Shown here piece after piece: positions 5,116 through 55,581 of a stretch of DNA of 56,105 nt. The notes under the pieces were generated by a model that ran no database searches, had not been told where the DNA came from, and saw nothing but the letters and a program-made list of their open reading frames with translations. This DNA comes from Brasilonema angustatum HA4187-MV1 (lineage in GTDB: Bacteria; Cyanobacteriota; Cyanobacteriia; Cyanobacteriales; Nostocaceae): assembly GCA_019359695.1 (NCBI GenBank), contig JAHHGV010000052.1:1-56105 (forward strand). Direction: 5' to 3'. Every line of letters begins with the position of its first letter. Position 1 is the stretch's first letter. Position numbers and translations under genes: made by a program.

Positions 5116-5362
5116 AAAAATCTGCCAGCCACAGGAATTATCGCCCATGTATAAATACTCATTATCTCAGAAAAATCTACGTTTGGGGCATCTTAGCGCC
5201 GACGCATTGTCCCCTAAAATTTTGGCAGCCAATGTGATTGTTGATCGGTGGGGCAAGACGAGTACTCGTAGTAATAAGGCTGCCAAAATTTTTACGTGTA
5301 AGACCCCCGCCCAGGTCGTTGGCGCTAAACCAACTAATTAGTAATGAGGCTGGCAGATTTTT
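5116..5362. repeat. Nested inverted repeats enclosing hairpin repeat copy A
   Basis: AAAAATCTGCCAGCC (5116-5130) pairs exactly with GGCTGGCAGATTTTT (5348-5362). TTAGCGCC (5193-5200) pairs with GGCGCTAA (5321-5328). Both surround the element at 5201-5308. The outer arms resemble the arms of the copy at 55471-55581, so this may be one hairpin element inserted in another. Confidence 0.6.
5201..5308 (+). repeat. Hairpin repeat family, copy A
   Basis: Left end GACGCATTGTCCCCTAAA, right end TTTTACGTGTAAGACCCCC. Perfect 15-bp arms AAAATTTTGGCAGCC (5216-5230) and its complement (5278-5292) enclose a 47-nt loop containing GAGTACTCGTAGT. The outer ends match copies B and C, while the arms differ. Confidence 0.85.
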
Positions 5363-5497
5363 CCGGTTTTAATGAAGCGGGAAAAAATGGAAAGCATTTA
5401 TTGTGGAGACATTAATTTTCAAGCGCTTACGCGACTTTTCTTCAATTCGTCCGCTGTGTGCGGTTTAATGGAGAAGGATTCAACATAAGAGTACACA

Positions 5498-6346
5498 ATG
5501 TTGAATAACTCTTCCACGCTCACTAACTCTGAACTTGTTGACCTTTGGTTACACGGCAAAAGTCTCAACACTGTTGACGGCTACCGTCGCTATGCAGAAC
5601 GGTTCTTTGTTCATGTGAATCATAAACTGCTAGCAGATTGCACTTTGATGGATATCCAAATGTGGACGATGACACTTCATTGTTCTGAGAATTCCAAGCG
5701 GGTGGCTGTGGGTGCAATTAAGAGTCTGTTTTCCTTTGCTAAACAGCTAGGAGTGATATCGGCTAATTTAGGAGTGTTAGTTAAGTCACCCAAGGCAAAG
5801 AACAGATTGGCAGAGCGAATTTTAACTGAAGACTGTGTACATTTACTGATAAAATCTACCACCAATCCACGTGACCGTGCTATCATCCGCTTACTTTACT
5901 TTGCTGGGTTACGGGTATCAGAATTGTGTCATCTCAAGTGGCGTGACCTCAAGGCGCGTGGGGATGGGGGACAGATAACAGTATTTGGTAAAGGTGAGAA
6001 AACTAGGACTGTGCTAGTGGGGAAAGGTATTTGGCGAGAGATTAATGAGTTAAAAGGCTATGCTCGTAAGGATGACCCTGTGTTTGTTTCGAGTAAAGGT
6101 GGTCACTTGTGTCGGTCGATGATATTTCATATTGTAAAGAATACGGCGAAACGTGCTGGACTTGAGGGTAATGTGTCGCCCCACTGGTTAAGACATAGCC
6201 ATGCTTCCCACAGTCTTGATAGAGGAGCGCCGATACATTTGTTGCAAAAGACACTGGGTCATAGTTCGGTGGCGATTACTGAGATGTATTTGCACGCTCG
6301 ACCTACTGATAGTAGTGGGTTGTATTTGGCGGATGAGGATGAGTGA
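5498..6346 (+). CDS. XerC/XerD-type tyrosine recombinase (integrase)
   Basis: 282 residues, the usual size for minimal Xer-like recombinases. The SAM-like N-terminal domain (residues 8-95) has the motif LVDLWLHGKSLNTVDGYRRY. The catalytic domain shows Arg139 (FAGLRVSELCHLKW), Lys165 (FGKGEKTR), His229/Arg232 (HWLRHSHASH), His255 (LGHSSVAITEMY) and nucleophile Tyr264. All six catalytic positions are therefore present and the enzyme should be active in strand exchange. It could act as a plasmid dimer resolvase or as the integrase of a mobile segment. The start ATG follows GGAGAAGGA, although that Shine-Dalgarno lies rather far upstream. Hairpin repeat copy A ends 190 bp upstream; a link between the two is only a guess. 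Confidence 0.9.
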   Translation: MLNNSSTLTNSELVDLWLHGKSLNTVDGYRRYAERFFVHVNHKLLADCTLMDIQMWTMTLHCSENSKRVAVGAIKSLFSFAKQLGVISANLGVLVKSPKAKNRLAERILTEDCVHLLIKSTTNPRDRAIIRLLYFAGLRVSELCHLKWRDLKARGDGGQITVFGKGEKTRTVLVGKGIWREINELKGYARKDDPVFVSSKGGHLCRSMIFHIVKNTAKRAGLEGNVSPHWLRHSHASHSLDRGAPIHLLQKTLGHSSVAITEMYLHARPTDSSGLYLADEDE

Positions 6347-6518
6347 TGAGTTGTGAGGGGGGGTGCGATACGCGCCCGGGCGTCTGCACTCTGTGCAATC
6401 GCAGAGCGCCATCGCATCCCTGGCAAATTTTCAGAAATTGCATCTACAACACATTCTTTGTTACAAACAAGGTGGATCATCAATTGATACAAGCTCAAGT
6501 AAATGCCCTTGCCCTTGA

Positions 6519-6896
6519 TTCCACTTTGATAAAGTCACAAACACTCCTGCTACTGAAACAGAAGTAGGTTTAAACAGCAGCGCCATCGTAAAGTCAAGCT
6601 CAAATAACACCATAGTAGTTAATGCTAGTCATGACGATATTGCAATACAGTGGTTTCAAGAGCGTCGTCGCCAAGCCAAGGCAAGCTTCAACGCTACCGT
6701 CAGTTTATGGACATTGACAGCTACCTTCAGCATTGGGGTTGCTATATCAGTTTGTATGGGGAACTTACCCGCAGCAGTAGCTACAACAGCTGTGGGACTT
6801 ACCACTGGAGTTGCCACTACTCGCTTGTTCAAGCTCTCGGATGATGCCAACAAAAGACTGGATGCAACTGCGAAGGAGCTTTTAGATGACGAGTAA
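6519..6896 (+). pseudogene. Small two-helix membrane protein, probably 5'-truncated (TRADD-N-associated-like)
   Basis: An open frame from 6519 (after a stop at 6516) reads VVNASHDDIAIQWFQERRRQ, then AKASFNATVSLWTLTATFSI. Two hydrophobic helices follow, ending in TRLFKLSDDANKRLDATAKE and LLDDE. This pattern (ERRRQA, two membrane helices, DANxRLDE) resembles the two-transmembrane domain that accompanies cyanobacterial TRADD-N-like proteins. No ATG precedes the conserved part; the first in-frame ATG is 6714, inside the first helix. I therefore suspect loss of the 5' end. If translated from 6714 it would be a 60-residue peptide. Confidence 0.45.
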
Positions 6897-7006
6897 ATAG
6901 GGTTTGTGCAGCGGTTCGCCAATGAACTGCTGCTCTCACGAGATAGCTTTTCTGGTGTCGGTGATTGCGCTCTAGAGCGTGATCGCTCAGAGAAGCCAAC
7001 TCACTC

Positions 7007-7044
7007 CACTAAAAAACCCGGTCAAGATAACCGGGGTTTAGTGG
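7007..7044. terminator. Hairpin, probable terminator
   Basis: CCACTAAAAAACCCGGT and ACCGGGGTTTAGTGG form a near-perfect stem around a 7-nt loop. There is no long U-run on either side, so factor-independent termination is possible rather than certain. Confidence 0.4.
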
Positions 7045-7153
7045 GGCAATATCCCCGAAGGTTTGTTATAGAAGTTAGTTATAAATAAGTAATCTAACTA
7101 AGACTACAACCAGAGCGTTGTCAATTTCGGAAAACTGTCATCCAGTTCTAAAA

Positions 7154-7187
7154 ATTTCCTCACATCGAAACTTCGATGTGAGGAAAT
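7154..7187 (-). terminator. Rho-independent terminator of the parA/parB-like operon
   Basis: ATTTCCTCACATCGAA (7154-7169) pairs perfectly with 7172-7187 across a 2-nt loop. On the minus strand the stem is followed by TTTTT. It lies 39 bp beyond the stop of the ribbon-helix-helix gene, the expected place for the operon terminator. Confidence 0.75.
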
Positions 7188-7201
7188 ACTTCATCATTTA
7201 C

Positions 7202-7225
7202 TTACTGCATTACTGCATTACTGCA
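7202..7225. repeat. Three tandem TTACTGCA repeats (candidate partition-site iterons)
   Basis: TTACTGCA occurs at 7202-7209, 7210-7217 and 7218-7225 without spacers, directly abutting the stop codon of the ParB-like gene. The same octamer recurs upstream of parA at about 8265 and 8401. Iterons on both sides of a parA/RHH pair are typical of plasmid centromeres or operators. Confidence 0.65.
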
Positions 7226-7570
7226 TTATTCGTCTACTTCCTTAAGTGCTTCATCTAGTAGAAACCGCACAATCTCAGCCTTTTTCCTGCCCGTCTTCGC
7301 CGCTAGCACAGATAGCTTGCGGTGCATCGACTCAGGTAAATCTACAGTTAATCGTACTGTTGCTTCTTTAGGAGTCGTCGGCTGAAGTTGAGACATGAGA
7401 TTAGATTTCGTTGGTTGAGTGGATGTAGGTTCTGCAGCTGGTTTTGTCACTGGCACAGTTTCCTGTTCTGGTTTTGGGGATTGGGAGTCTTGAGGTTCTG
7501 ACTGGGACTTACCATAAACAAACTCACTCGCCAGGGCATCATCGAGGGACTTTCGCTTCTTGGTACTCAT
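7226..7570 (-). CDS. Ribbon-helix-helix partition protein (ParB-like)
   Basis: 114 residues. The first ~65 are disordered and rich in Pro, Gln, Ser and Thr. The C-terminal ~48 form a ribbon-helix-helix (ATVRLTVDLPESMHRKLSVL followed by GRKKAEIVRFLLDEAL). The ATG overlaps the end of the ParA gene by 4 bp (ATGA). In type Ib partition systems the RHH protein binds centromere repeats, represses the operon and stimulates the ParA ATPase through its flexible N-terminus. The disordered N-terminus, operon order and adjacent TTACTGCA repeats all fit that role. Confidence 0.8.
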   Translation of the reverse strand: MSTKKRKSLDDALASEFVYGKSQSEPQDSQSPKPEQETVPVTKPAAEPTSTQPTKSNLMSQLQPTTPKEATVRLTVDLPESMHRKLSVLAAKTGRKKAEIVRFLLDEALKEVDE

Positions 7571-8217
7571 GGCACCATCCCCATAATTTCTTTGAACAGT
7601 CGCTCATACTCGCGTGCAGATTCAGTCGCTGGACGACCTGATAAATCCCAAATTGTTGCGGCTTGACCAAAAGTGTCTGCGATCGCTTGTTTATTGTGAA
7701 TCACTGTCTTGAGCACCGTCACTTCTTTTGTTTTAGATAACAGTGCGATCGCTTCATCTAGTAGCTTTGTCCCTTTAACGGCACGGCTGATGAATATAAC
7801 CGCTTTAGGTAAACCACCGCGCACAGATTGAGCTTGCTTGATTAACCGCACAGAATCAGAAGCCGATTGCAGGTCTAAACCTGTTGGCTGACAGGGAACG
7901 ACAGCCAAATCAGCCCGAAACAAAATCGCCCTGGTGGACTCAGTTAGCCCAGCAGGTCCATCCACAATCAGATAATCACACTGCTTGGCTAACTCTGGAA
8001 TTTGTTCTAGTAGTTCATCAGGTGATTGCAGTACAGTAGCTGGAATTGGGTTATCTTCCATCGAAGTCAGCCAAATTGAACTGCTGCGTTGAGCGTCAGC
8101 ATCTAAAAGCTGAACCTTATGACCTTTTTTAATTAGCCAGCAGCTCATGTGAACAGCAGATGTGGACTTGCCACACCCCCCCTTTTGATTCAAAAATCCT
8201 ATCACTGTGCCCATCAT
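7567..8217 (-). CDS. parA: ParA/MinD-family partition ATPase
   Basis: About 216 residues. The deviant Walker A is at the N-terminus (VIGFLNQKGGCGKSTSAVHM). The A' motif LLDADAQRSSSIW and Walker B-like YLIVDGPAG follow, then VVPCQPTGLDLQSA. This is the compact ParA without an N-terminal HTH, as in type Ib systems. The frame stays open to a TTG at 8232. AAGGAAGGA lies just before the ATGATG at 8217/8214, so an ATG start is preferred. ParA dimerises with ATP on nucleoid DNA and moves plasmids bound by the partner encoded by the overlapping downstream gene. The leader carries repeats likely bound by that partner. Confidence 0.88.
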   Translation of the reverse strand: MMGTVIGFLNQKGGCGKSTSAVHMSCWLIKKGHKVQLLDADAQRSSSIWLTSMEDNPIPATVLQSPDELLEQIPELAKQCDYLIVDGPAGLTESTRAILFRADLAVVPCQPTGLDLQSASDSVRLIKQAQSVRGGLPKAVIFISRAVKGTKLLDEAIALLSKTKEVTVLKTVIHNKQAIADTFGQAATIWDLSGRPATESAREYERLFKEIMGMVP

Positions 8218-8245
8218 TCCTTCCTTGCTCAAGCAATGACTGTTG

Positions 8246-8416
8246 TACTCAATTACTTACTGCGTTACTGCATTGATGCAGTAAGTAAAACTGGAAAGTC
8301 GCTCTGTTGTTGTATAAGTTTTCAGCAAGCAGATTCTAACTGCGCCCATCATTTCTTCTCTTACTCAAGTAATAATTTATATACTCAATTACTTACTGAA
8401 TTACTGCATTGCTGCA
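8246..8416. promoter_or_regulatory. parA leader: duplicated TTACTGCA array, candidate operator/centromere
   Basis: TTACTTACTGC (8253-8263) pairs with GCAGTAAGTAA (8278-8288), and within it TTACTGCATTGATGCAGTAA (8265-8284) is almost palindromic. A diverged second copy of the block, TACTCAATTACTTACTG then TTACTGCATTGCTGCA, lies at about 8383-8416, about 133 bp away. The duplication also covers the ATGATGGGC start region (8210-8217 versus 8342-8350). Beyond it, 8417-8670 shows nothing I can name. Confidence 0.6.
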
Positions 8417-8670
8417 TTAATGTTATTAATTCCTGTGGGCGCACAATCGTAATGCTTGACGTAACGTACCAAAGTACCAAATCCTTATCGAGTGGGAGAA
8501 GTCTTAAGGTTTGTTGTGAAAGATAATCCAGAATTGGATGTAGCGATCGCATAATTCATATTGTGATTCAGCAACACCGTTTTTTCCTTACCCAGTCAAG
8601 CATTAATTCCTCTCACCCTTCAAAAATGAGCGAATGTACAGTATAAAGTGGGGCTATGCACTACCTACGC

Positions 8671-10915: not shown

Positions 10916-10958
10916 AATAAAAATTAGGGGATTTGAACAAAGACCATTTTTTCTTGCG

Positions 10959-39419: not shown

Positions 39420-39476
39420 AATTCAGGGGTAGCATTATACGCTTTGCCTAAAAGCGTATAATGCTACCCCTGAATT
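39420..39476. repeat. Perfect 26-bp inverted repeat with 5-nt loop upstream of the biosynthetic operon
   Basis: The left arm (39420-39445) begins AATTCAGGGGTAGCATTATA and ends CGCTTT. The right arm (39451-39476) is its exact complement; the loop is GCCTA. It lies 224 bp upstream of the FAAL start. Lacking a U-run, it looks more like a repeat or regulatory structure than a terminator. The rest of 39196-39634 is AT-rich leader with no gene I can support. Confidence 0.75.
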
Positions 39477-40963: not shown

Positions 40964-41634
40964 ATGCACTGCCCTCAATGCAACTCGAATAACATAGTCA
41001 AAAATGGACGTACTCACTACGGAAAACAACGGTTCAAATGCCAAAATTGTGGACGACAGTTTGTCGAGAGTCCAACAAGACAACCGATTGATAACTCAAC
41101 ACGTGAATTAATCGATAAACTCTTACTTGAACGGGTTTCATTAGCGGCGATCGCCCGTGTCACTGAAGTTTCACTACGTTGGCTTCAATACTACGTTAAC
41201 CAGAAATATTACCAGGTTCCCAAATCTGTTGAAGTGACTAAAAAAAAACCAGGTCGGCTGATAATCCAGATGGATGAGATGTGGTCATATGTAGGGTCGA
41301 AAGCTAATAAACAATGGATTTGGCTTGCAATCGACGCGACAACCAGAGAAATTGTTGGGGTACATATTGGCGATCGCTCTAGCCAATCAGCAAAACAATT
41401 ATGGCAATCGCTACCACCTATCTATCGACAATGTGCAATGTGTTACACAGACTTTTGGGAAGCTTATGAACAGGTTTTACCCAGTAAACGACACCAATCA
41501 GTAGGCAAAGAAAGTGGTAAAACGAGCTACATTGAAAGATTCAACAACACCTTGCGACAACGAGTTGGACGACTAGTTCGTAAAACATTATCGTTCTCCA
41601 AAATGCTGGACAATCATATTGGTGCTATCTGGTA
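40964..41634 (+). pseudogene. IS1 transposase, 5' part, interrupted by IS66
   Basis: MHCPQCNSNNIVKNG with a second CQNC pair forms the zinc ribbon. A helix-turn-helix follows (SLAAIARVTEVSLRWLQ), then the DDE nuclease (IQMDEMWSYVG, CYTDFWEAY, SYIERFNNTLRQRV). The frame hits a stop within the IS66 end at 41633-41635, right after NHIGAIW. The natural continuation (YFIHHYNASLQ) is found at 44649-44685 after the IS66 element. The gene is therefore split 223 residues in and lacks only its last ~20 residues. Confidence 0.88.
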
Positions 41635-41964
41635 GTAACCGTTCAGGGGGCGATCGCGAACTAAAACACAATGTATTTCAATGAGCGTAGGAGTTATGGA
41701 GGTTAATTCCGGAGACTCTCCTAAATTGAATAGAAGTAAATAACCGGATATGAGAAATGTGGATTAAGCAGCATTTGTTACTTGCTTAGAAGCAAGAGGA
41801 ACTTTAGGGAGCAAAGAAGGAGAAGCTTTGCCAACACGCGCAGCACTCACTGCTGATGTGATAAAATCCAAGACATTTCGACGCTGGGACTTGAGAGTAG
41901 TCACAACGGTCAACATCCTTTGTACAAAAGTACTGCCAGCCTGGGTTTGAGAACCAAAACTGGT

Positions 41965-42070
41965 GACGCATTGTCCCCTAAATTTTTGCCAGCCTTATAA
42001 CTACGAGTACCCGACTACGCCGACAGATCAACAAACAAAGGCTGGCAAAAATTTTACGTGTAAGACCCTC
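41965..42070 (+). repeat. Hairpin repeat family, copy B (inside IS66 tnpC)
   Basis: Left end GACGCATTGTCCCCTAAA, right end TTTTACGTGTAAGACCCTC. The arms AATTTTTGCCAGCCT (41981-41995) and their complement (42039-42053) are perfect. The 43-nt loop reads in the opposite orientation to that of copies A and C. Removing it restores TnpC (RRT|SFGSQ), with a 2-3 bp target duplication (GTG). Confidence 0.9.
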
Positions 42071-42841
42071 GTGCGTCGCCAGATCACCGCAGGACGAATT
42101 GCTCTTTCAGCAGCATTATTTGTCGGTTCAACGCCATCAACCGTCACAAATAACCATAAAGCAGGTTCAACTTTCAGTATTTGGCGGCAAGTGCGAACAG
42201 TTTTAGCTAGTGGTGTTTTTTCTTTAGAACCAATCTCACAATCGGCAGCCTCTTGTAGAGAGGACTTGAGGGAGTTACGAATCTCTGATACTAAAAGTTG
42301 AAACTCAAAACGTGTCAAGGTTCCATCTCGAACCCGATGCCATAACTCAAATAATTTCTCCTGTTGTTTTACTAGAGCATTACCGATCTCGTTTGAAACT
42401 CCAGGACGCTCAGAGATTTTGATAAATTCTCGTCTCAGATGCGCCCAACACAATTGTCGCTGTTCTAAACTTACCCAGTTGTATGCCGCATATCGGTCTG
42501 AATTTAAAATACCGCTAAAGTTTTCACCCAGGAGATTACGGGCAGTATCGGAACAACGGGAAAGGGCAATCTGAAAATAAGTCACTAAGGGGAGCCACTG
42601 CGTTGGGCGGCTTTGCCGACTTGAAGCATGTGGCGTTGTAACCGCTACCCAGAGCCAACCTTGATTTTTTTTGTTATTGCATCCATCAACATTCCCCTGA
42701 GCAAAGCTTGTTTCATCTGCCCCAATTACTTCGGAGTTTTGGACGTATATTTTTGCTTGGTCAACTGCACTTTTGACTGCATGGCTGGCTTCAAGTCTCA
42801 GGTTGTTGACTGTACCCAAAGACATGGAAATTCCGAATATA

Positions 42842-43962
42842 TACTTTGCCAGGGTATAGATTTTACTTTTTTCCAGAGCTAAAAATAGAGGAGAACTCTT
42901 ACTCTGGTGACCAACTTGATCAAACTCACGTTCACTGCCGACGAGATTAAACAACTGCATTACGAACGCTTTCATCATCCCCACCCACGTGTGCAACAAA
43001 AAATGGAAGCGTTGTACCTCAAAAGCCAGGGTTATCCTCATTGGGAAATTGCCCAATTGATTCGAGTTACTAAACCGACCTTGTTGAGTTACTTTCAGGA
43101 CTACCAAGCAGGAGGAATTGCCAAGCTCAAAGAGATCACCTTCTACCGACCACAGAGTGAACTAAAGCAGCATCAGGAAAGTTTGTCAGCTTACTTTCGA
43201 GAACATCCTCCCAAAACTTTGGCTCAAGCGGCTGCCAAGATTGAAGAGCGAACGGGGATTGTTCGCAGTCGAGAGCAAGTGCGTCAGTTTCTCAAGTCGA
43301 TGGGGATGAGTTGTTGCCGAGTGGGGGTACTCCCTGCCAAAGCAGATCCACAGGAGCAAGAGGAATTCGTTAAAAAAAACTAGAACCTCGGTTGGAAGAG
43401 GCGAAAGCAGGCAAACGAGCAGTGTTCTTTGTCGATGCGGCTCACTTTGTCTTGGGTGCATACCTTGGGTTTTTGTGGTGCTTTGAGCGATTATTCATCA
43501 AATCTGGTTCAGGACGGCAACGCTTCAATGTTCTAGGTGCCCTCAATGCCGTAACGCGTGAGTTAATTCTAGTCACAAATGAAACTTACATCAATGCTCA
43601 AAGTGTCTGCGAACTACTGAATAAGCTAGCTGCTTTAGGGTTGAGTATCCCAATTACCCTGGTGTTGGATAATGCTCGATATCAGAAGTGTGCGCTGGTG
43701 ATGGAGTTGGCTCAATCGTTGAACATCGAACTGCTTTATCTGACTGCTTATTCTCCCAACTTAAACTTGATTGAACGCTTATGGAAATTCGTTAAAAAGC
43801 AGTGCTTATACTCGATTTACTATCCTGATTTTAGTGCATTCAAGGCGGCAATCACTTCCTGTCTTAATCAGTGTCACACAACTTACAAACAAGAGTTGGA
43901 CTCATTGCTAACCTTGCGTTTTCAATCCTTCAATAAAGTAAAAACTATCCCCTGACAAAGTA
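42842..43962 (+). mobile_element. IS630-family element inside IS66 tnpC
   Basis: About 1.12 kb with inverted ends TACTTTGCCAGGGTATAG (from 42842) and TACTTTGTCAGGGGATAG (complement, ending 43962), flanked by a duplicated TA, the standard IS630/Tc1 target. Excision with one TA retained restores the TnpC frame. Confidence 0.9.
42907..43955 (+). CDS. IS630 transposase made from two overlapping frames
   Basis: The first frame (42907-43383, 158 residues) has a helix-turn-helix N-terminus (YLKSQGYPHWEIAQLIRVTK) and a second winged segment (LAQAAAKIEERTGIVRSREQ). The second frame, open from 43374 to 43955, has the DDE core: FFVDAAHFVLGA, ITLVLDNARYQK and YLTAYSPNLNLIERLWKFVK. The frames join at 43374-43380, A AAA AAC, a canonical -1 slippery heptamer just before the TAG that ends the first frame. 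A -1 shift would give one ~350-residue transposase, a normal IS630 size. This arrangement is known for some IS630 members. The element looks intact and possibly active. Confidence 0.85.
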
Positions 43963-44710
43963 TATCTTGCATGGCACTCTGCACCATCCGAGTACTGTGG
44001 CGGTACAGTCCGCTCAACACGGTTACAAGAGCCACAACTCTCACACCATAACCACTTGGATATACGTCTACGGGTAATGTTGCACGGGTTAAAGTCCCGC
44101 ATTCAGAGCACATTAGTTGGTGCAGGCGATGTTCTACGATTATTGGACTGATGGGAGGAATTTCTACTATCTGGTGACGGTAAGGGTTGGTATCTTCTCC
44201 CTTTAATTTTTCTGCACAACCGCTACAGGTTTGTGGGTGGTGGTCTAAAACGCTTTCACACTCGGATAACTCATACAGCTCGCGACTATGACCCTTGTGT
44301 CCTGGTTGCCCTCCTCGCTTTTTACCACTCTTGTTTTTTTCTTGGTGTTTTTCAGCATGAAGTGGATCTGAGGACGGCGCAGATGACGAGTTTTTTGATG
44401 TGCGATTGATTTTTTCTAACAGTTCTTGGTGTTTGACCTCTTGTTCAGCCAGCTTTTCTTCTGATTTTTTGATGTGCTGCCCCATTTTCTCGACCAATTC
44501 CTTGACATTGGCTGGAGTCTTTTCCCAATCAGAGTCGGAAATTTCAATTCCGTAGGCGAGGCAGTTTTCATCCATGCAATTTAATCTACCACCTCAGTAA
44601 CCCATTTTTCACGCTCTGCGTTTCAAATCCTGTGAACGGTTACATCTGGTATTTTATTCATCACTATAATGCTAGTCTACAAAATGAAATCATTACTATG
44701 CATTACTACC

Positions 44711-44838: not shown

Positions 44839-45105
44839 TTAAAGCTCTATCCCCCCGTCAAATTCGTCCGGGTCATCAGTTTCTATCGGCGCTGGTTTAA
44901 TAACCACATGTTCCTGATATCCGTTTAAGCTTGCAGGTGCTGTCGCTGCTAGAGTGGGTAGAATTGGGTACTTTCCTTCTAAATAACGTAAGTAAAACCC
45001 TATTGCGTCCTCAACAAACCGACTCTCAGTAATCTCTAAAGATTCACACCATTGCTGTACTTTGAGCTTTTGATACTTCTTAATCCTGATTTTGTCAGCT
45101 GTCAT
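44839..45105 (-). CDS. ParR-like small DNA-binding protein
   Basis: 88 residues. The N-terminal half (RIKKYQKLKVQQWCESLEIT followed by RFVEDAIGFYLRYLEGKYP) looks like a ribbon-helix-helix; the C-terminal half is acidic and Pro-rich (TDDPDEFDGGIEL). It lies directly downstream of the actin-like ATPase gene, the standard parM-parR order, where ParR binds the centromere and caps ParM filaments. Assignment rests on order, size and fold pattern. Its ATG directly abuts hairpin repeat copy C, whose end supplies AGGGGA about 8 nt before the start, so its ribosome-binding site comes from the repeat. Confidence 0.65.
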   Translation of the reverse strand: MTADKIRIKKYQKLKVQQWCESLEITESRFVEDAIGFYLRYLEGKYPILPTLAATAPASLNGYQEHVVIKPAPIETDDPDEFDGGIEL

Positions 45106-45211
45106 TGCATTGTCCCCTAAAAATTTGGGCAGGCTTTGTTTGTTAATCTGTCAGCGTAGTCGGGTACTCGTAGTTATAAGCCTGCCCAAATTTTTTACGT
45201 GTAAGACCCTC
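45106..45211 (+). repeat. Hairpin repeat family, copy C (fills the parM-parR junction)
   Basis: Left end GCATTGTCCCCTAA, right end TTTACGTGTAAGACCCTC. Perfect arms AAATTTGGGCAGGC (45121-45134) and complement (45180-45193). The 45-nt loop is nearly the reverse complement of the copy B loop, although the outer ends are in the same orientation. It is bordered by CATT on both sides. Confidence 0.88.
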
Positions 45212-45212
45212 A

Positions 45213-46295
45213 TTACCCAACCTCCGCTATGAGTCCCATGAGGTTATCAAAAGCACCATTGGCTGAAATCAAGAAACCTTTCTTCTTTAGTGCAGCATTC
45301 AGCAGTGGAAGCTTAGAACCACCTCCGATTATCAGGATTTGGTCACCACTAAGCTTATACTGTTCTAGCTGCTTAATGACTTCGCGCAATCTGCAATTGA
45401 TGAAGTCCTGTAGCTCGAACTCATAGACTTTGTAGAAATTGAGATCTGATTCACCATAAGCCAGAAACGGAATTTTCTCACTTAACTCCGATTTTTTGAA
45501 CTTTACTCCTACCTCAATACTCCTGTTGATGACATCCTTACTAGGTGCTTGTTTGATAAGTGCTTTGAGATCAGAATTACAGCTAATTCGCTCAATTAGG
45601 TATTCAGCGCCAAAATCCTTAACTGCAACTTCTCCCACTGGCTCAGAATTAAAGAATCGACTGATAGACGTGTTACCGCCACCAATATCACAGATAGTTA
45701 CTGCTCCGTCTAGCTTCTGGCTTTTAAGCGCTGCAAATCCTTCGGGTAAGATTGCTTTAATGGTAATAGTTACACCACATGGGACGCCACACAATTCTAC
45801 CTTGTGCGTCCCTTCGTTCTTCCTGATAATTCCTGAGTGGCGCTTAACATCATTGGTAGTTACCGTAACTTCTAGATTCATTTCTGGGTTAATCTGTGGT
45901 AGATGAGCTAAAGTGCCTAAGAAGTACTCAAGCCACAGAGATGACTTACCCATGTAATCTTCCACCAATCTCATCAGGTCACTGCTACCACTGCGGACAG
46001 CTTGATTGCCGATTAGCCAGCAGCTGTTAATTAGGTCAGTCCTCACACCATTGACATAACGGACGTGACCAGGTAATTTATTGGAAGTGTTGGATAAGCA
46101 GCGAGCATACCAGCTTGGTTCCCTTATAAGTTCGTAGCCTTCGACATAAGCTTTAATCCAATGATTACCCAAGTCAGTCACGGACTTGAACTGCTTCTTA
46201 TTTTTCGCTGGTATTTTAGGTGTTTTTACTCCCTCTATTTGGGGGGTACTTTTGGGTACATTTGCGGTTGTGTCAGTGGTCTTAGAATTCGTCAT
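45213..46295 (-). CDS. parM: ParM/StbA-like actin-family partition ATPase
   Basis: 360 residues. After a ~35-residue Pro/Thr-rich leader, the actin-fold phosphate-1 motif is VTDLGNHWIKAYVEG, phosphate-2 is VTICDIGGGNTSISRF and the adenosine motif is QILIIGGGSKLPLL near the C-terminus. This three-motif order defines the actin/ParM/Alp superfamily. ParM-type proteins polymerise with ATP and push plasmid copies apart, with an RHH partner bound at parC. The downstream 88-residue gene fits that partner, and parC may lie in 46296-46521. Phage or plasmid Alp-type filaments with other roles are the alternative. Confidence 0.85.
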   Translation of the reverse strand: MTNSKTTDTTANVPKSTPQIEGVKTPKIPAKNKKQFKSVTDLGNHWIKAYVEGYELIREPSWYARCLSNTSNKLPGHVRYVNGVRTDLINSCWLIGNQAVRSGSSDLMRLVEDYMGKSSLWLEYFLGTLAHLPQINPEMNLEVTVTTNDVKRHSGIIRKNEGTHKVELCGVPCGVTITIKAILPEGFAALKSQKLDGAVTICDIGGGNTSISRFFNSEPVGEVAVKDFGAEYLIERISCNSDLKALIKQAPSKDVINRSIEVGVKFKKSELSEKIPFLAYGESDLNFYKVYEFELQDFINCRLREVIKQLEQYKLSGDQILIIGGGSKLPLLNAALKKKGFLISANGAFDNLMGLIAEVG

Positions 46296-46655: not shown

Positions 46656-47549
46656 ATGTCTCCTGCCTTGCCTCAGTGTTCAAGTTGTCATGCTGGGGAT
46701 GTCGTGAAAAATGGTCGAACGCGGCATGGGAAGCAAAATTATAAATGCCGTGAGTGTGGGCGTCAATTCGTTGAAGACCCGCAGTGGCGACCGATATCAG
46801 ATGAAACCAAAGAGATATAGGACTACTATTTGATTTTTGACGAAGCTAGGTACACTTCAAGAGCCTTTTTTCCTGTTAAGCGTTAAGCGTTAAGCGTTCC
46901 CTCCCTACGCAAACAATTTCACAAATCAAACCGGATTCCTATAGTTGAGCGGTTGCTGTTAGAAAAAATTTCGCTTGTAGGCATTGCCCGTGCCTTACAG
47001 ATTTCAGAATTGTGGTTGCAACAATACGTCAATCAAAAGTCGAAGACGATGCCTCAGGAGGTACAAGTACGCCCAAAGCCGAAACGTCGCTTGACAGTTC
47101 AAATGGATGAGTTGTGGTCGTTTGTGGATCACAAAGGTAATGAACAATGGATCTGGCTGGCGATGGACGTTGGCACACGCGAGATCGTTGGTTGCTATAT
47201 TGGCGATGCACATAAGGGAGCAACCATTGGTGATCGCAGTGGCAAATCGGCTCAGGCATTGTGGGACTCTTTACCCGCCGTGTATCGCCAGTGTGCCGTT
47301 TGTTATAGTGATTTCTGGGTGTCCTATCCTGTAGCGCTACCGAGCAAACGACATCGGGCAGTTGGTAAGGAAACAGGTTTAACAAGCTATGTTGAGCGAT
47401 TTAACTGTACGTTAAGACAACGAGTCTCACGGTTAGTAAGAAAAACTTTGTCATTTTCCAAAAAGTCAGAGAATCACATTGGCGCGATTTGGAATTTCAT
47501 CCATCACTACAATGCTTCTCTCCCAGCCAACTCATCCTTTCCTCTTTAG
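46656..47549 (+). pseudogene. IS1 transposase disrupted by a MITE
   Basis: From ATG 46656 the zinc ribbon (CSSCHAGDVVKNG, then CRECGRQFVEDP) runs to a stop at 46818-46820 inside the MITE. After the MITE the frame resumes as VERLLLEKISLVGIARALQI, and continues through the DDE core (VQMDELWSFVD, CYSDFWVSYP, SYVERFNCTLRQRV) to NHIGAIWNFIHHYNAS and a normal C-terminus. An in-frame 27-bp insertion (AHKGATIGD, about 47209-47235) is present relative to the first IS1 copy. The gene cannot make full-length protein; the downstream part could only start at internal codons. Confidence 0.85.
46818..46941. mobile_element. 124-bp MITE in the IS1 transposase gene
   Basis: Ends TAGGACTACTATTTGATTT and, on the complement, TAGGAATCCGGTTTGATTT, flanked by a duplicated TA. 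Removing it gives GAGATAGTTGAGCGG and restores the transposase frame. TA target and TIR type suggest mobilisation by an IS630/Tc1-type transposase. The centre carries GTTAAGC three times in tandem. Confidence 0.8.
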
Positions 47550-47802: not shown

Positions 47803-49671
47803 TTAATACTTGGTAATGATTTCTGGATGTAGCCTGTAACCGTTCCCATTGCGTAAATTTCCATTTATATCCTCTATCGATTCAAGGCTTAAATTTTTGC
47901 CCATCGCTTTGCCAATGAGTTCCATTAACGCTTTTGCTCTTGCTTGGAAAAATGCTTCAAAGTCGTCATTGCGTAAAATTTCTAGTTTGATGCAATGCGA
48001 GCGCATTATTTCTTCCAAGCTAGCGGTCGCAGTTCCATGCAGCTCAAACTCTTTCAAGTAAGCCGAAGGTGCTTTACTACCAATTCTTTTATTAGTTTTA
48101 GCGCTTAATGGGGTGCGATTAACTAAGCAGTTATATTTTTTGGGATCAATGCCTTGTCTGCGACACCATGCGACGGGGAAGATATGATGTGAGTCGATTT
48201 GTTCTTCAAAATAAACAACGTCGTTAATTTCCTCGCCTGTGATCCAATCTACTGCACCTTCACGCCGTAGTAATGCCGCGAACCCCTGATAAACTGCACC
48301 AAGTCGCTTTCTGACGCTAAGAAGTCTTTCAAACGAGAAATTTGCTTGCGTGATGCCAAAAGGAACCGAACCACCTGAGAGCCATGCTGGTACTTCGACA
48401 ATATCGCGTCCAGCTTGCGAATCGTGCCAGTGGGTATAAATTTCCCCAAACATCCCGCACCACAACCAACGCTCTAACATCGAACGTACTTGAAACGAAC
48501 GAGAGCGATCGCCAATAATAGTCAAAATTGCGCTTAAGGCTACTAATTGGATGGGGTAAGCAATATCATTGGCATCAAAGATTTTTTGACCGCGTAGAAA
48601 ACGAGCTGCTTCTTCAAAACCTTTGTTAACAGGATCAGCCCATGTTTGATATTCTTCTTTTGTTAGTTTTAATACTTCGGCACGACCGCAAGCGACACCA
48701 GGCAATTTATCTACATTCCAGCCTTGTTTAGCTGCTGAGATTCTGCGAGCGTAACCAGTTACTAAGGTTACAGCTTGCATAAAATCGGTACTACGGACTT
48801 GACGGAGAACTTTGAATGCCTGAAAGCGCCTTTCGCGCTGTTTCCAATCATCTCGAAGGCTAAAATCATCTGCACAGTAACTCGAACTCATTAAATCAAA
48901 GAAGTTGAGATCGCACCCAGCTGTATTTGTTTCCTCGAAAACTTGGCATACTGCCTCTTTCGGTAATGAATCGCGCAGTTGAATTACTGGTATTTGATAA
49001 TGCTCAAATTTTTTGAGGACTTCTAATTCTAAAGTGTCAATTAGTTCGAGTTTTTGAGAGTCGTACTGCCAGTATTTAGAAAATTTGCTACGCCATTCAG
49101 AAAAAAAGAATACTTTGGATAACGGAAATAAAAGCGCTTCATACTCATTTTCTGGAGTCGAACAGTCGATAAAATCGCCGTTTCGAGTTCGCATAACTTT
49201 CGATTCGGGTAAAGCAATAATGGCGGTTTTGCGGTCGCACTCTGGTGAAAGGCATTTTTCAATATCCAGGTAATACCACTTTGTCGTTAATTTCTGGCTT
49301 TTGGGATCTTTGACGACGACGGGTTGCCCAGATAGCAGCACCATGAACGAAGTTGTTAGTCTTTGCTGTCCATCGAGTACTAGTAAATTTGGTGTTTGGG
49401 TTGCGGTAGTTGCGACACCATCAAGTAAACGCGGTTTAAATTGTTGGCGTGAAATACCTTGTTGGAGCATCATGACTGCACCAATAGGATAAGCCAGCGA
49501 TATACTTGCTAGCAAACGGCGCACATGGGTATCATCCCAAATCCAATCTCGCTGAAAGTCTGGTAGTTGAATGCGTCCTATTTTTATATCCTTCATGACA
49601 TCGAATAAGGGATATTTTGTAATATCAAATGTCGAAATCGAATCCATTTGGTGTTCTGCTGTTGTTGTCAT
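47803..49671 (-). CDS. DUF262/HNH (GmrSD-type) protein, probable defence nuclease
   Basis: 622 residues. The N-terminal DUF262 (ParB-like nuclease/NTPase) domain shows IGRIQLPDFQRDWIWDD (31-47), PIGAVMML and VLDGQQRLT (98-106), the conserved DGQQR motif. The C-terminal DUF1524-type HNH domain shows IDSHHIFPVAW (about 492-502) and NRTPLSAKTNKRIGS. This two-domain order is that of fused GmrS-GmrD type IV restriction enzymes and relatives, which cut modified (e.g. glucosylated hydroxymethylcytosine) phage DNA using NTP. Phage defence is likely by family; the target is unknown. It stands alone; a strong terminator lies upstream at 49707-49739. Its Shine-Dalgarno is not obvious. Confidence 0.82.
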   Translation of the reverse strand: MTTTAEHQMDSISTFDITKYPLFDVMKDIKIGRIQLPDFQRDWIWDDTHVRRLLASISLAYPIGAVMMLQQGISRQQFKPRLLDGVATTATQTPNLLVLDGQQRLTTSFMVLLSGQPVVVKDPKSQKLTTKWYYLDIEKCLSPECDRKTAIIALPESKVMRTRNGDFIDCSTPENEYEALLFPLSKVFFFSEWRSKFSKYWQYDSQKLELIDTLELEVLKKFEHYQIPVIQLRDSLPKEAVCQVFEETNTAGCDLNFFDLMSSSYCADDFSLRDDWKQRERRFQAFKVLRQVRSTDFMQAVTLVTGYARRISAAKQGWNVDKLPGVACGRAEVLKLTKEEYQTWADPVNKGFEEAARFLRGQKIFDANDIAYPIQLVALSAILTIIGDRSRSFQVRSMLERWLWCGMFGEIYTHWHDSQAGRDIVEVPAWLSGGSVPFGITQANFSFERLLSVRKRLGAVYQGFAALLRREGAVDWITGEEINDVVYFEEQIDSHHIFPVAWCRRQGIDPKKYNCLVNRTPLSAKTNKRIGSKAPSAYLKEFELHGTATASLEEIMRSHCIKLEILRNDDFEAFFQARAKALMELIGKAMGKNLSLESIEDINGNLRNGNGYRLHPEIITKY

Positions 49672-51151: not shown

Positions 51152-54100
51152 ATGGTTCGCATAACAAATTCTGAAACACAATTTGTATCATCAGATAATA
51201 CAAAACGCCAAGCGACCCCTATTCCCAAAAAAACTCTCACTGGCGAAATAGCGTTTAAGATTTGGCTAAATCTAGCGTTTAAGGTTGGCGAAAAGATTTG
51301 GCTTAAATTTAGTCACAATCAGTTTTTAACTGGGACTATTAACCAATTAGGTAACTTCCCTATATGCGAGACGCGCGGATCTGGAACGAACCGAAGAAAG
51401 ACAGCTTACCACGCAGATGCTTTTAAATTTTTATCTCAGCGCACGACTCAGCTAGATGGTGGTGCATTCTATATTCCTGGGAAACCGGGCGACTACCCAC
51501 TCAAGGAATTCTGTCCAGCCTCGGATGATATCGGCGGTGAAATGGACGATGGTACAGCCCTTGAGCAGTGGGAACGCATTGAATTGCTAGTTCAACTGTC
51601 TGGGTTAACTCCGGGGTACATCATCGGGTCTGGTGGTAAATCTGCCCACCCCCACTGGAAGTTATCAACTACGGTTGATATTGCCCAAAGAACTTTCTTT
51701 GCTCGGATGTTAGCGATCGCACTGTTGGGTGATCCAGCCGTAACCAATCCCCACCAACCAATGAGGGTTCCTGGGTTTTATCGCAAGGAAAAAGGTAAAG
51801 AGCAAACTCTAGAATTTTACAGTGAAGCGCGTTATAGCCCAGAAGAATTTGAACAAGGGATGCAACGTTGCTTTGTTGCTTTAAACTTTACTTGGTATGA
51901 CTCACTCAGCCAAGACCGCTGGCAAGAAGTACGTCGGGTTTTAAGCAGTAAGCTACCACGGGGGGAAAAGGAAATTAGCATTCGTCAGCTGCTAGCTCTG
52001 CCTGAAAGTGATTTACCAGAGAATGTACGTCGTCGCGAACTAACGGAAAAACGTAACCAACGGCAGTACAGACGCACCGTTACGGGATTTATCGGCGATA
52101 CTGCCAACAGTTTGATCGATGCCGTTACCCAAACTTCAGAAAACCTAGGTGCTGATGCTTTTTACTGGACCGGACATAACTGGCAGTGGACGGGCAACAA
52201 GGCACGTGGTTGTTGTCCCTGGCATGAATCTACTACTGGTACAGCTGGATGGATTGCACCGCTACAAAATGGTAATGGGTGGGGCTTTGCTTGCCCGACT
52301 TGCACCGACAATAAGCAACTCAATGCTTTTGGCTATTGGTGGCATTTCAAGAATGGTATTAATGCACAATACCCCAAGGGTAAAGAATGGGCAGCAGCGG
52401 CGAAAGAGTTTTGTCAACAGGCTGGTGTAGATGTACCTGAGTTGCAAACTGCTTTTGCAAATGATTATAGTCGCAGAGATGCCCAGCAAGAGCAATTTGA
52501 AAAATGTTGCGCTCGCCACACCGAGCAACAACAAGAAGAATCATTAAAATCTTTCTTCATCAATGGTTTGGGTAGATTAAAAAAATATCTTAGTCGCACC
52601 CGTCCCTTTGTAGGTTTTGGTCCACAATCTGAGACCAAAATCAGCCCAGAGAAAGAAAATAATTCTGGGATTATTAAGTTTGCAGAAGGGCAACATCAAC
52701 AAACTATAGAGAGCTTGGCACAGGAAGCCAAAGCATCTGGCAAGAAATTAATTATTCTTGACAACAGTTCTGGTGGTACTGGAAAATCCCATCTTGCAGG
52801 TGAGCTTACACCGCAGGGATTGGGAATAGACAAATTATTCTATACCAGCTCTACGCACCGGAATCCTACCGTTGCAAGCATTGAGCGGAATTATGCTGAT
52901 CTACCTGTGCGTAACGATGGACTGTTCGCGGATGACAGCAAACGAACTCCTTTAAATAATCCTTCCGTCCGCTGGCCCCAAAAAGGAGAACAAGCAAATC
53001 TAGAAGGCAACTGCTTTAAAGCACCTTTATTTTACAAGTATGCGGAAAAAGGATACCGAACGGAAACTTCATTAGAAGCAGGAGAAAATCCGCTCTGCTT
53101 GAATTGTAAGCTGAGGATTTCCTGTATAGGCGCAGAAGAGACAGATGATGTAGTTCCTGGGAGTGGCTTTAGATGGGAGCGTAGAAGTGCACTTGCTTAC
53201 AACATGATTCGATGCTCCTTGGATTCCTTGCCTGATATCGCTGAAATGCAGAAGCCTGTACCGGAGAAAAAAGAAGATTCAGATAACGAAGAGAATATCG
53301 AAGAAGAAGAAGACACAGGAAAAGACACAGGAGAAGCGCGGCGAATTGCGATCATTGTAGACGAATTGACGCAATTTCATTCACATGATTCGTTGGAAGC
53401 GTCGCTTAAAGATTTTGATACCACATGGATGTATTTACAAGGCAGGATGCATTCAGATGCGGATGAAGATTTAGCTGAAGCGCTAAAAACATTAGAACCA
53501 ATTGTTTTCTTTTTGCGACAGATTTTAAACGGAGAAGAAAAAACAGACTCAGATACCCGCAACGGTTGGTCAGAGGCGATTCTGCGAGAAAAGCTAGGTG
53601 AACTACTGATTTCAGAAATTCAGCAAGCCTTAGAAACCATTCGCCGGTTCACACCCAAACTAGAAGAATTGTTAAAAGAAGCCGACAGCGTATCCCAAGA
53701 CAGCATGGCACGGAGCGATCGCAAAGGAAGTGCTGCATCTCTAAAATACGTTCGTAACGTAATGCAGAAAGAAGCAGATAAGGAGAATCGGGATGCGATC
53801 GCGAACATGCCATCAAACTGGCTGGTTCCTTTGTTGGAAATTTTGCTAGGGGAGCAAGATGGCTCTTTCCGCATCCAGTGGGGTAAATTAATCATCTATA
53901 CAAACAACGACCGTCACCGCGATCATCTGAAGCAAGCTGATTTTACCTTAATTTTGGACGGCACGGAAAACAGAAAATCGGTAGCACAGAAGCTTAAATG
54001 TGATCCAAGTGAGATTGTTGTTATCCAACAGAAAGTCAGACCTTATAAGAACTTAGTAATTACTCAAGTTACTGGCTTTGGCTTGTTAGGGGCTGACAGA

Positions 54101-55063
54101 AGCGCTAGCGCCCAGAAACGTGTAAATGCCTTAACAGCAGGCATAGAAAGGAAACATGAATCTGTAGGGGTTATAGATCATAAAGGTGCTCTAGATGAGG
54201 AATCCGAAGCCGGATACTGGTTCAAGGACAACCGAGGAAGTAATAGATTTCAAGAGAATTCGGCACTTGTGAGTTTTGGAACACCTTTCCAGAATATTGG
54301 ACACTTACAAATGCTATACACTACGTTGACAGGCGATCGCAATCCGGATAGAGGTAATGCCAATTTTGATGCTTTTGTGCAAGAACACGTACAAAATGAA
54401 ATGCAACAAGCTGGCTGGCGTCTCAGGAGCACCAGACGCCCGGATGAGCAGCTGTACTGGTACATTGCTAGTGATGCCGATCTATCTTATCTGAAAGATA
54501 AATTTCCTGGTGCAGAATTTGAAACGAAACCAGCATTTCAGATTACTCCAGATGCAGGTAGTGCCAGTGAACGTATCCACTGGTCAATTCTGCAAGCCTT
54601 CAAAGTTTTGGATGAGGCAAAGCAGAAAGTCACCACTGGTGCTCTAGCCAAAATTGTTGGTTGTCACAGAAGCAGGATATCTCAAATTGCTAACGAGGTT
54701 GCAGGTGGGTTTGACAGCTTCCGAAAAGTGTTAATTCACCTATTAAGTACTTTATATAGGGGAGTTAACACTTTGGGAGAGCCGCTAACTGAGGATGAGC
54801 AGTTTGCCGCCAAGACGTACTTACCCTTGTTACTGGAAGAAGATACGCCTGACCCAACTGACTTGGTAAATGAAGCGGTTGCGATCGCCTCAAGTCTTGG
54901 GTGGAAATCATTTGCTCGCGTTCTCGCTGCACTGGACCCGCACCATAGATCAACTTTGCTTGGTAACATGCTTATCTTCTTGCCGGAAGAATGGCAGCAG
55001 GAACTGCTAGAAATTCCGATTCAGGCGATACGCTCTGCGTCAGCCCAAAGGGCTATCGCCTAA
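51152..55063 (+). CDS. Plasmid replication protein, primase/helicase-like (possibly CyRepA type)
   Basis: About 1303 residues from ATG 51152, preceded by GGAGG; an in-frame TTG at 51140 is inside that Shine-Dalgarno stem. Residues 120-235 resemble an archaeo-eukaryotic primase core: GGEMDDG (about 128), IIGSGGKSAHPHWKL (157-171) and NPHQPMRVPGFYR (199-211). A CHC2-like zinc segment follows (CCPWHEST, then WGFACPTC, about 350-385). The P-loop SSGGTGKSHL is near 538-547, a CLNCKLRISC zinc pair near 650, Walker B IAIIVDEL near 730, and a C-terminal HTH (IVGCHRSRISQIA) near 1165. This build suits large cyanobacterial plasmid initiators that prime and unwind their own origin. The last residues (AIRSASAQRAIA) are encoded by a dispersed repeat. 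Confidence 0.82.
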   Translation: MVRITNSETQFVSSDNTKRQATPIPKKTLTGEIAFKIWLNLAFKVGEKIWLKFSHNQFLTGTINQLGNFPICETRGSGTNRRKTAYHADAFKFLSQRTTQLDGGAFYIPGKPGDYPLKEFCPASDDIGGEMDDGTALEQWERIELLVQLSGLTPGYIIGSGGKSAHPHWKLSTTVDIAQRTFFARMLAIALLGDPAVTNPHQPMRVPGFYRKEKGKEQTLEFYSEARYSPEEFEQGMQRCFVALNFTWYDSLSQDRWQEVRRVLSSKLPRGEKEISIRQLLALPESDLPENVRRRELTEKRNQRQYRRTVTGFIGDTANSLIDAVTQTSENLGADAFYWTGHNWQWTGNKARGCCPWHESTTGTAGWIAPLQNGNGWGFACPTCTDNKQLNAFGYWWHFKNGINAQYPKGKEWAAAAKEFCQQAGVDVPELQTAFANDYSRRDAQQEQFEKCCARHTEQQQEESLKSFFINGLGRLKKYLSRTRPFVGFGPQSETKISPEKENNSGIIKFAEGQHQQTIESLAQEAKASGKKLIILDNSSGGTGKSHLAGELTPQGLGIDKLFYTSSTHRNPTVASIERNYADLPVRNDGLFADDSKRTPLNNPSVRWPQKGEQANLEGNCFKAPLFYKYAEKGYRTETSLEAGENPLCLNCKLRISCIGAEETDDVVPGSGFRWERRSALAYNMIRCSLDSLPDIAEMQKPVPEKKEDSDNEENIEEEEDTGKDTGEARRIAIIVDELTQFHSHDSLEASLKDFDTTWMYLQGRMHSDADEDLAEALKTLEPIVFFLRQILNGEEKTDSDTRNGWSEAILREKLGELLISEIQQALETIRRFTPKLEELLKEADSVSQDSMARSDRKGSAASLKYVRNVMQKEADKENRDAIANMPSNWLVPLLEILLGEQDGSFRIQWGKLIIYTNNDRHRDHLKQADFTLILDGTENRKSVAQKLKCDPSEIVVIQQKVRPYKNLVITQVTGFGLLGADRSASAQKRVNALTAGIERKHESVGVIDHKGALDEESEAGYWFKDNRGSNRFQENSALVSFGTPFQNIGHLQMLYTTLTGDRNPDRGNANFDAFVQEHVQNEMQQAGWRLRSTRRPDEQLYWYIASDADLSYLKDKFPGAEFETKPAFQITPDAGSASERIHWSILQAFKVLDEAKQKVTTGALAKIVGCHRSRISQIANEVAGGFDSFRKVLIHLLSTLYRGVNTLGEPLTEDEQFAAKTYLPLLLEEDTPDPTDLVNEAVAIASSLGWKSFARVLAALDPHHRSTLLGNMLIFLPEEWQQELLEIPIQAIRSASAQRAIA
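55024..55060. repeat. Nostoc-type dispersed repeat forming the end of rep
   Basis: GGCGATACGCTCTGCGTCAG followed by CCCAAAGGGCTATCGCC: inverted ends GGCGATA/TATCGCC with an inner GCCC/GGGC. It encodes the last ~12 residues of the replication protein. Confidence 0.6.
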
Positions 55064-55124
55064 AGAGAAGAACCGAGTTTAGCATCCATGCTTGAATAAA
55101 TTGGTCAACCGTCAAACGACGATC

Positions 55125-55260
55125 TGAGTCACGGGGTCTAACACGAAAAAATTGGAATCGAATTTGCCGCAAAAAATTGGCAGCCTTAATACAACGAGTA
55201 CTCGTCTTGGAACACAGATAACCAATCACATTGGCTGCCAATTTTTCAGGACTAGGCTCC
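55125..55260 (-). repeat. Hairpin repeat family, copy D (diverged ends)
   Basis: Arms AAAAATTGGCAGCC (55172-55185) and complement (55233-55246) are perfect. The loop in minus orientation, AATGTGATTGGTTATCTGTG then AAGACGAGTACTCG, matches that of copy A. The family's right end survives only as TCGTGTTAGACCCC (minus strand, near 55125-55140). A half element, CCCCTAAAAATTGGGCAGGC (minus strand, about 55340-55360), lies beside it. Confidence 0.65.
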
Positions 55261-55359
55261 GTGGGGCTTAATACGATACGCGTCTTGTCCCCCCGATCAA
55301 TCAGAGGGCTTGTAGCAAAGCGGTTCCTCTTAGGAACTAGCCTGCCCAATTTTTAGGGG

Positions 55360-55402
55360 CGGCACGTTTTGGGTAAGAATCTTCTTACCCAAAAGCTGCC
55401 GC
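55360..55402. repeat. Nested hairpin in the GCGGCACG...GCTGCCGC scaffold
   Basis: GCGGCA (55360-55365) pairs with TGCCGC (55397-55402), enclosing TTTTGGGTAAGAA (55367-55379) and its exact complement (55382-55394). It shares its outer scaffold, but not its core, with the palindrome at 2045-2070. Confidence 0.65.
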
Positions 55403-55470
55403 TGACTTTGCGTCACCAACCCGCAACCTTAATACACGGTTGACCGGGCGAATGACTGGAGAAATGAGCC

Positions 55471-55581
55471 GTCGCATTTGGGTCAAAAAAATCAGCCAGC
55501 CCTTGTTTTTGTTGATCTGTGTTGTCATCTCATGTACTCGAAGTATTCGGGCTGGCTGATTTCTCTACGTGTAAGACCCCC
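55471..55581 (+). repeat. Hairpin repeat family, copy F
   Basis: Left end GTCGCATTTGGGTCAAAAA (diverged), right end CTACGTGTAAGACCCCC. Perfect arms AAATCAGCCAGCCC (55489-55502) and complement (55549-55562). The loop contains TTGTTGATCTGTG and GTACTCGAAGTAT. No gene is seen in 55064-55644 apart from repeats. Confidence 0.75.

Follow-up and report, generated by a model that had tools for sequence, protein, structure and literature searches.

How can a short hairpin repeat keep its stem perfectly paired while the sequence of that stem changes from copy to copy? This question is raised by a family of repeats in contig JAHHGV010000052.1 of Brasilonema angustatum HA4187-MV1 (assembly GCA_019359695.1), analysed here over 56,105 nucleotides, which we call the window. 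A first reading of the letters alone (the sequence-only reading) had described four copies and one diverged copy with shared outer ends and covarying arms. The present analysis revealed a real, mobile and strictly covarying hairpin element of about 105-110 bp, a non-coding and non-autonomous mobile DNA of filamentous cyanobacteria, whose mechanism we infer. The copies described before were all found again close to where they had been placed, as follows.

5204..5306, plus strand, copy 1, intact ends, stem arms 5216-5230 and 5278-5292.
5115..5130 and 5348..5363, plus strand, left and right arms (16 bp) of an outer perfect hairpin around copy 1.
41968..42068, plus strand, copy 2, intact ends, stem arms 41980-41996 and 42038-42054.
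45107..45209, plus strand, copy 3, intact ends, stem arms 45119-45136 and 45178-45195.
45103..45106 and 45211..45214, plus strand, left and right CATT repeats flanking copy 3.
About 55133..55359, minus strand, diverged composite copy, reversed and nested, with its reversed right end at about 55133-55146.
55172-55185 and 55233-55246, arms of the inner hairpin of the diverged composite copy, the stump of the other outer arm lying at 55337-55359 (assigned partly by reading).
About 55473..55579, plus strand, copy 4, left end divergent and right end exact, stem arms 55489-55502 and 55549-55562.

Copies 1-3 contain the exact left end GCATTGTCCCCTAA and right end ACGTGTAAGACCC, whereas copy 4 keeps the right end exactly and reads CGCATTTGGGTCAA on the left, and the outer ends are shared in full by three copies and by the fourth on its right side. 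The arms, previously given as 14-15 bp, have this length in copies 1 and 4 (15 and 14 bp), while the perfect arms of copies 2 and 3 extend to 17 and 18 bp. Two features were absent from the sequence-only reading. Seen against the ends that they share, copies 2 and 3 carry their loops in opposite orientations, the 77-nt inner parts being 87% complementary, and copy 1 is situated in the loop of the second perfect 16-bp hairpin. When the window copies were folded as single-stranded DNA, z values of -2.8 to -4.7 were obtained against dinucleotide shuffles in seven folds of five stretches, of which two were folded on both strands and the diverged copy was folded as 55140-55265.

Read from left to right, the element has GCATTGTCCCC as its left end, frequently preceded by TNAC, then a perfect stem of some 17 bp that closes a loop of roughly 42 nt, and finally ACGTGTWAGACCCC followed by G as its right end. 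When the fetched loci were searched with the ends alone, allowing at most two substitutions in each, which is less biased than the covariation subset described below, 98 of 104 hits enclosed a stem of at least 10 bp; 81 were perfect, mostly of 17-18 bp, and the loop was 41-43 nt in 73 of the 98 stem-bearing hits. Among the six hits with fewer than 10 pairs, those at loci L048 and L121 seem to be decayed or chance matches, and the other four contain a bulge or mismatch. The ends were nearly invariant among 97 copies, a uniformity partly built in because the loci were mostly fetched by exact or near-exact end patterns; the single varying right-end position is the one left open in the two-ended patterns. 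For 30 loci fetched by similarity of the loop and right end, a script found a stem in 23 and none in 7. The left end, which lay outside that query, was present with at most two substitutions in 15 of these 23 stem-bearing loci versus 0 of 255 random stretches, and the remaining eight showed other or diverged ends. In 24 further hairpins the common core was found with the exact end pair absent.

We then examined pairing in 93 unique hairpins, each stem being taken in its best-pairing register. Every stem position from 6 to 17, counted from the loop, showed three to four kinds of Watson-Crick pair, and non-Watson-Crick cells numbered 2 of 1,103 there and 18 of 465 at positions 1-5. In 42 copies pre-filtered to have 16 or more pairs and a loop of 42 nt, a filter that favours pairing, 99.9% of 672 cells were paired, and 108 both-side changes were counted against a single one-side change. 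None of 500 shuffles matched the observed pairing, both-side changes or covariation score, and pairing was 28-63% when the stem alignments were slid. The covariation of the arms noticed in the window was thus borne out across the family, and strict pairing of a hairpin that varies between its ends suggests an enzyme that recognises shape more than sequence. Since G-T cells were nearly absent from the stems, the constraint seems to act on DNA rather than on RNA. A structured RNA (terminator, ribozyme or non-coding RNA) maintained by selection at its sites would account for a stable stem, and some copies are intergenic; we nevertheless regard it as very improbable, as G-T/G-U cells are nearly absent, the loop takes either orientation about evenly (40 versus 32, with 20 not assigned), no Rfam family reached its gathering score within the window, and several copies interrupt transposase genes. 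The same Rfam result led us to reject a known RNA family.

The own genome gave 17 blastn matches to copy 2, some of them parts of one copy. Either end alone, with mismatches allowed, was a weak signal there (72 places versus 43 in the control for the left end, 18 versus 8 for the right). The two-ended pattern was found in 11 of 99 relatives, including all seven same-genus genomes searched, and its backwards control gave 0 matches. In a set of 84,980 species genomes, 85 stretches contained the pattern, and the titles of the 80 listed name Brasilonema, Scytonema, Fischerella or 'Nostocales cyanobacterium', Fischerella and Scytonema being members of the Nostocales. Relatives of the element are thus scattered across Brasilonema, Scytonema and other Nostocales. 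Plasmid records gave two matches, one covering more than 80% of the query. The viral_contigs set gave 0 matches, and a phage origin was rejected on this ground.

The same hairpin core also occurs between other ends. A second end family (GGGAGATCCA ... ACTGGYAAGTGCC) carries it at TNA-like sites in genome G013 and other relatives (loci L222-L266), and its left-end pattern, with one mismatch allowed, gave 151 matches in G013 versus 4 in the control. A third end variant (about GACGCAYTKGGRCAAA ... CCAGTCGGAACCCCG) was seen at L063, L111, L175 and L188 and is sometimes nested in the loops of other end families. In addition, two larger contexts, both with short conserved motifs, hold the element at one fixed position, the first at L005, L069, L105, L120, L179 and L193, and the second at L117, L137, L142, L165, L168, L172 and L188; the small hairpins belonging to these contexts seem, by eye, to covary too.

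Movement of the element is documented by empty sites and by identical copies at new sites. Homologous sites without the element, whose listing the sequence-only reading had suggested, were found for 34 loci among 96 flank rows, with 68-100% identity per side in the fetched sequences; a separate comparison, which covered 33 of the 96 flank rows and scored five candidates per genome, gave further examples. Copy 2, which overlaps the 3' end of an IS66 transposase open reading frame (ORF; 42028-43107, minus strand), has an empty-site homologue at 73/79% identity. The site of copy 3 is empty in a homologue in the same genome (L057), in which two minus-strand genes share TAATG as overlapping stop and start, and CATT on both sides of copy 3 keeps both the stop and the start. 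The units at L145 and L166 were 100% identical over 118 bp and those at L155 and L189 over 114 bp, and BLAST at 1e-10 found nothing else in common between the paired loci. Because identical units lie in unrelated flanks, the unit of about 110 bp moves alone. The unrelated flanks of these identical hairpins also led us to reject the loop as a guide to the target. Some copies still ride as passengers within larger insertion sequences (IS), as in L128/L130 (98% over 1,567 bp) and in an IS605-type element of 2,100 bp in G023, and many lie in or near other IS. The copies are nonetheless not simply parts of one long IS end, in agreement with the sequence-only reading.

What happens to the hairpin after insertion was examined in 12 pairs of copies with both flanks in common by BLAST, five with the same arms and seven with different arms. 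Three of the same-arm pairs had the same loop, one an inverted loop and one a different loop. In L171/L081 the loop was inverted and the arms kept (flanks 90 and 89%), and L118 differed from window copy 3 (L003) in its loop, again with the arms kept (flanks 85 and 91%). Different arms were seen for example in L077/L067 (flanks 83 and 91%) and L168/L165 (90 and 93%); in four of the seven such pairs (L172/L137, L187/L073, L188/L142 and L195/L059) at least one flank match spanned only 27-60 bp. The hairpins of L152/L070 were identical, with flanks 72-78% identical. The hairpin of a shared-site pair can differ more than its flanks, in the loop, in loop orientation or in arms and loop together, while the ends remain. 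The sequence-only reading had ascribed the perfect pairing to selection or to a copying mechanism; concerted replacement, whether by copying or by exchange, is favoured, since one-sided changes are nearly absent and hairpins differ at shared sites.

As to how such an element moves, we tentatively favour, at somewhat less than an even chance, a non-autonomous hairpin element mobilised in trans by a single-strand transposase of the IS200/IS605 kind, with hairpins exchanged between copies. An HUH Y1 transposase would act in trans on the single-stranded folded form and would recognise the hairpin mainly via its shape, and cleavage would adjoin TNAC on either strand. Exchange or conversion between copies would renew the hairpin, and this renewal could keep the pairing perfect while the sequence changes and leave the loop in either orientation. 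In favour of this explanation stand the stems and their covariation, the empty sites and solo identical units, the hairpin differences at shared sites and, as described below, the junctions, the boundary of a TnpB-encoding IS and the OrfB_IS605 and Y1 genes near copies. An exchange of hairpin cassettes, which we consider rather unlikely, would involve an enzyme that recognises any perfect hairpin set between two constant ends and exchanges or inverts such hairpins across scattered sites; the ends would then serve as exchange boundaries and the stem as nearly free sequence. If hairpins are indeed swapped between fixed ends, this would be a form of DNA exchange for which our literature search found no described transposon counterpart.

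Several observations on the hairpin, the junctions and the enzyme weigh against mobilisation by a Y1 transposase with exchange of hairpins. First, arm and loop similarity were correlated (Mantel r 0.369 in 72 copies, 0 of 1000 permutations as high, after exclusion of 20 of 92 unique copies whose orientation was not assigned), and full independence of arms and loop was rejected on this result. Further standard pair types showed no excess (109 of 500 shuffles as high), and in some shared-site pairs the two copies may have inserted independently at a hotspot; this is less likely for L118/L003, because both have an unusual junction. It has been known that replication can rewrite one arm of an imperfect palindrome from the other, which is called quasi-palindrome correction. 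Here it would copy one arm onto the other with no exchange between copies, mobility being a separate matter. Mismatched or one-sided states are almost nil, as such a process would leave them, it would operate on DNA irrespective of strand, an inverted loop as in L171/L081 could arise by template switching, and the correlation of arms and loop agrees with it. However, loop replacement at the shared site of L003/L118 and near-identical loops with different arms (L001 versus L061, loop 98% and arm 75%; also L001 versus L079) are unexplained by it, and loops of about 42 nt seem long for it, so that we judge this explanation quite unlikely.

Second, the junctions are not uniform. The tetranucleotide preceding the element was TNAC in 45 of 97 copies, CGAC in 38 and neither in 14, and many CGAC copies are embedded in other conserved hairpin contexts. 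Left and right tetranucleotides agreed in 21 of 87 copies versus a shuffled mean of 9.8; when CGAC copies were excluded, agreement was 21 of 51 versus a shuffled mean of 16.0 and was attained by shuffles, and for this reason it proves no duplication. The target tetranucleotide is kept on the left at L148 and L185, with a mismatched right side, and rather on the right at L074, L156 and L178. L001 and L002 look right-kept too, with weaker homologues: L001 stands at 73/79% identity, and one of the three homologues of L002 reads GAC, not GAG, and is thus unfit for the right-kept reading. Some junction readings are uncertain at empty-site identities of 68-100% per side, and L003/L118 (CATT) and L006 (ATC) look like short target duplications. 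In the Y1 elements studied, the target tetranucleotide is kept on the left, whereas several copies here look reversed, for which a reaction on the second strand would be required; inspection of the hairpin foot by eye showed no guide that could pair with TNAC. Taken together, the junction overlap is short, variable and often TNAC-like; the element may carry a single TNAC with it and be able to react from either strand. In favour of the Y1 explanation, a TnpB-encoding IS present in two copies (L128/L130) has a boundary similar to that of the element, with TTAAC ahead of its left end and GTCAC at its terminus.

The short overlaps, the apparent duplications at L003/L118 and L006, and the presence of the same hairpin core in the second end family at TNA-like sites would also agree with an ordinary miniature inverted-repeat transposable element (MITE) that a DDE transposase inserts with short duplications of TNA type, the covariation being incidental. 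We hold this to be decidedly improbable: the ends are not inverted repeats (5 pairs versus a shuffled mean of 6.0), the overlap varies, several copies whose empty site is known have unlike sides, and a MITE alone leaves strictly paired variable arms unexplained.

Third, no enzyme was found whose presence tracks the element, a question that the sequence-only reading had raised for a recombinase or replicon gene. Of 168 candidate neighbour ORFs, 148 were listed and 103 scanned, mainly the longest per insertion and with insertions late in the list left out; 20 matched OrfB_IS605 and 4 Y1_Tnp, and DDE transposase families were represented by DDE_5 (8), DDE_Tnp_1 (6) and DDE_3 (4). A TnpB-like cluster ORF was present in 25 of 80 named loci, 18 such ORFs lying within 300 bp of a copy. 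These are raw counts, and such transposon-gene neighbours may arise because the element targets them, hitch-hikes with them or survives where the DNA is neutral. In favour of a Y1 transposase, genes of this type adjoin copies in G003, in G002 and, in three copies of one IS, in G023. Y1_Tnp was found in 56 of 59 relatives and does not discriminate; its presence was rejected as a marker of carriage, being too common. No autonomous copy with the same ends was seen among the own-genome end matches examined or the 80 named loci checked for extra ends, a search that was not exhaustive, and the loci viewed for GGGAGATCCA ends showed only paired, truncated, nested or chance matches. We infer a hairpin-recognising enzyme all the same, and the published Y1 mechanism suits the anatomy best, but it does not suit every junction.

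The other candidate enzyme adjoins copy 1, where an ORF at 5498-6346 encodes a tyrosine recombinase resembling XerA and integron integrases, below curated cut-offs. It was undetected at 1e-20 in carriers G001, G002, G004 and G023 (4 of the 10 carriers searched), and as the mover it was rejected for lack of correlation with carriage. In a cassette of the tyrosine-recombinase type, a folded or circular unit would recombine via a short overlap, which is known in such systems as the coupling sequence, and recognition would be of its structure, in the manner of integron attC sites. As this would allow, each of the two junctions can apparently match the donor or the target, and the element resembles attC in kind, which is likewise a hairpin of variable sequence and conserved structure between conserved end boxes. 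The attC R'' and R' boxes read RYYYAAC and GTTRRRY. At the right end here, 56 of 97 copies have A and 39 have T where the second T of GTT would stand, and the left end is without an AAC box, so that the mismatch to integron attC boxes noticed in the window was upheld by the end compositions over 97 copies. Moreover, the copies are scattered, with no cassette arrays seen, the hairpin itself is the mobile unit, and the two ends are unpaired as inverted arms. Given these differences and the recombinase undetected in those four carriers, we think this explanation unlikely.

Among known systems, the nearest to the element are REPINs and the ends of IS200/IS605 elements. In the Y1 mechanism, as described in PMC6006769, binding of the hairpin is combined with a guide interacting with the tetranucleotide where the DNA is cut. 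The hairpin near the ends and the tetranucleotide-adjacent cleavage of IS200/IS605 elements in that text find a likeness here, and the local TnpB IS is bounded by TNAC-like sequence. In contrast to those elements, one hairpin would serve both ends, both junction polarities occur, there is no internal gene, and a guide was not noticed by eye. REPINs are described in PMC3116915 as two inverted REPs forming the ends, moved by RAYT transposases, around a hairpin spacer with compensatory changes whose length matters. Like REPINs, the present element is non-autonomous and about 100 bp long, its ends are conserved, and the hairpin that they enclose has a near-constant length and shows compensatory changes. 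However, the ends of the present element do not pair (at most 5 pairs, 1920 of 2000 shuffles as high), and its loop is inverted or replaced. No GTAG/GTGG-type tag 5' of the hairpin foot was found in the aligned ends by reading, without a dedicated search, and the Y1_Tnp count (56 of 59 relatives) does not separate the RAYT subclass. The mitochondrial repetitive and double hairpin elements of PMC2800124 are likewise small, gene-free, located in or between genes and taken as mobile; in the sponge elements described there the stems are conserved and the loops differ, whereas the stems of the present element vary. The element may have been described previously by Elhai et al. 2008, whose title concerns very small mobile repeated elements of cyanobacteria, properties that the present element has as well.

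The family constitutes a natural library of about ninety different hairpins with varied stem sequence and kept pairing, together with empty sites and identical copies at new sites. It makes both the recognition of mobile DNA by shape and the upkeep of palindromes, whether by selection, copying or exchange, directly testable.

The window also contains the following genes.

3457-3870, PIN-family toxin-like ORF.
40964-41635 and 46953-47549, IS1 transposase ORFs.
42028-43107 and 43922-44575, IS66 transposase ORF in pieces.
43392-43955, IS630 transposase ORF.
44839-45105 and 45213-46295, minus strand, genes around copy 3.
47803-49671, GmrSD-type ORF.
55645-56004, InsA-like transposase ORF.

Neither Pfam nor NCBIfam gave a match for the ORF at 45213-46295, and its one PDB match was at chance level (E 0.03). 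From their motifs we take this gene and the one at 44839-45105 to be a ParM-like actin and its small partner (ParM/ParR-like), an assumption unsupported by Pfam, NCBIfam or PDB, and the contig may be a plasmid. Three very long ORFs of 2487, 4630 and 1329 amino acids with repeated stretches occupy 13794-39195 and perhaps form a non-ribosomal peptide cluster. Finally, short runs with an 8-bp period occur in separate places within 7186-8427, and a perfect 26-bp inverted repeat with a 5-nt spacer lies at 39420-39476.

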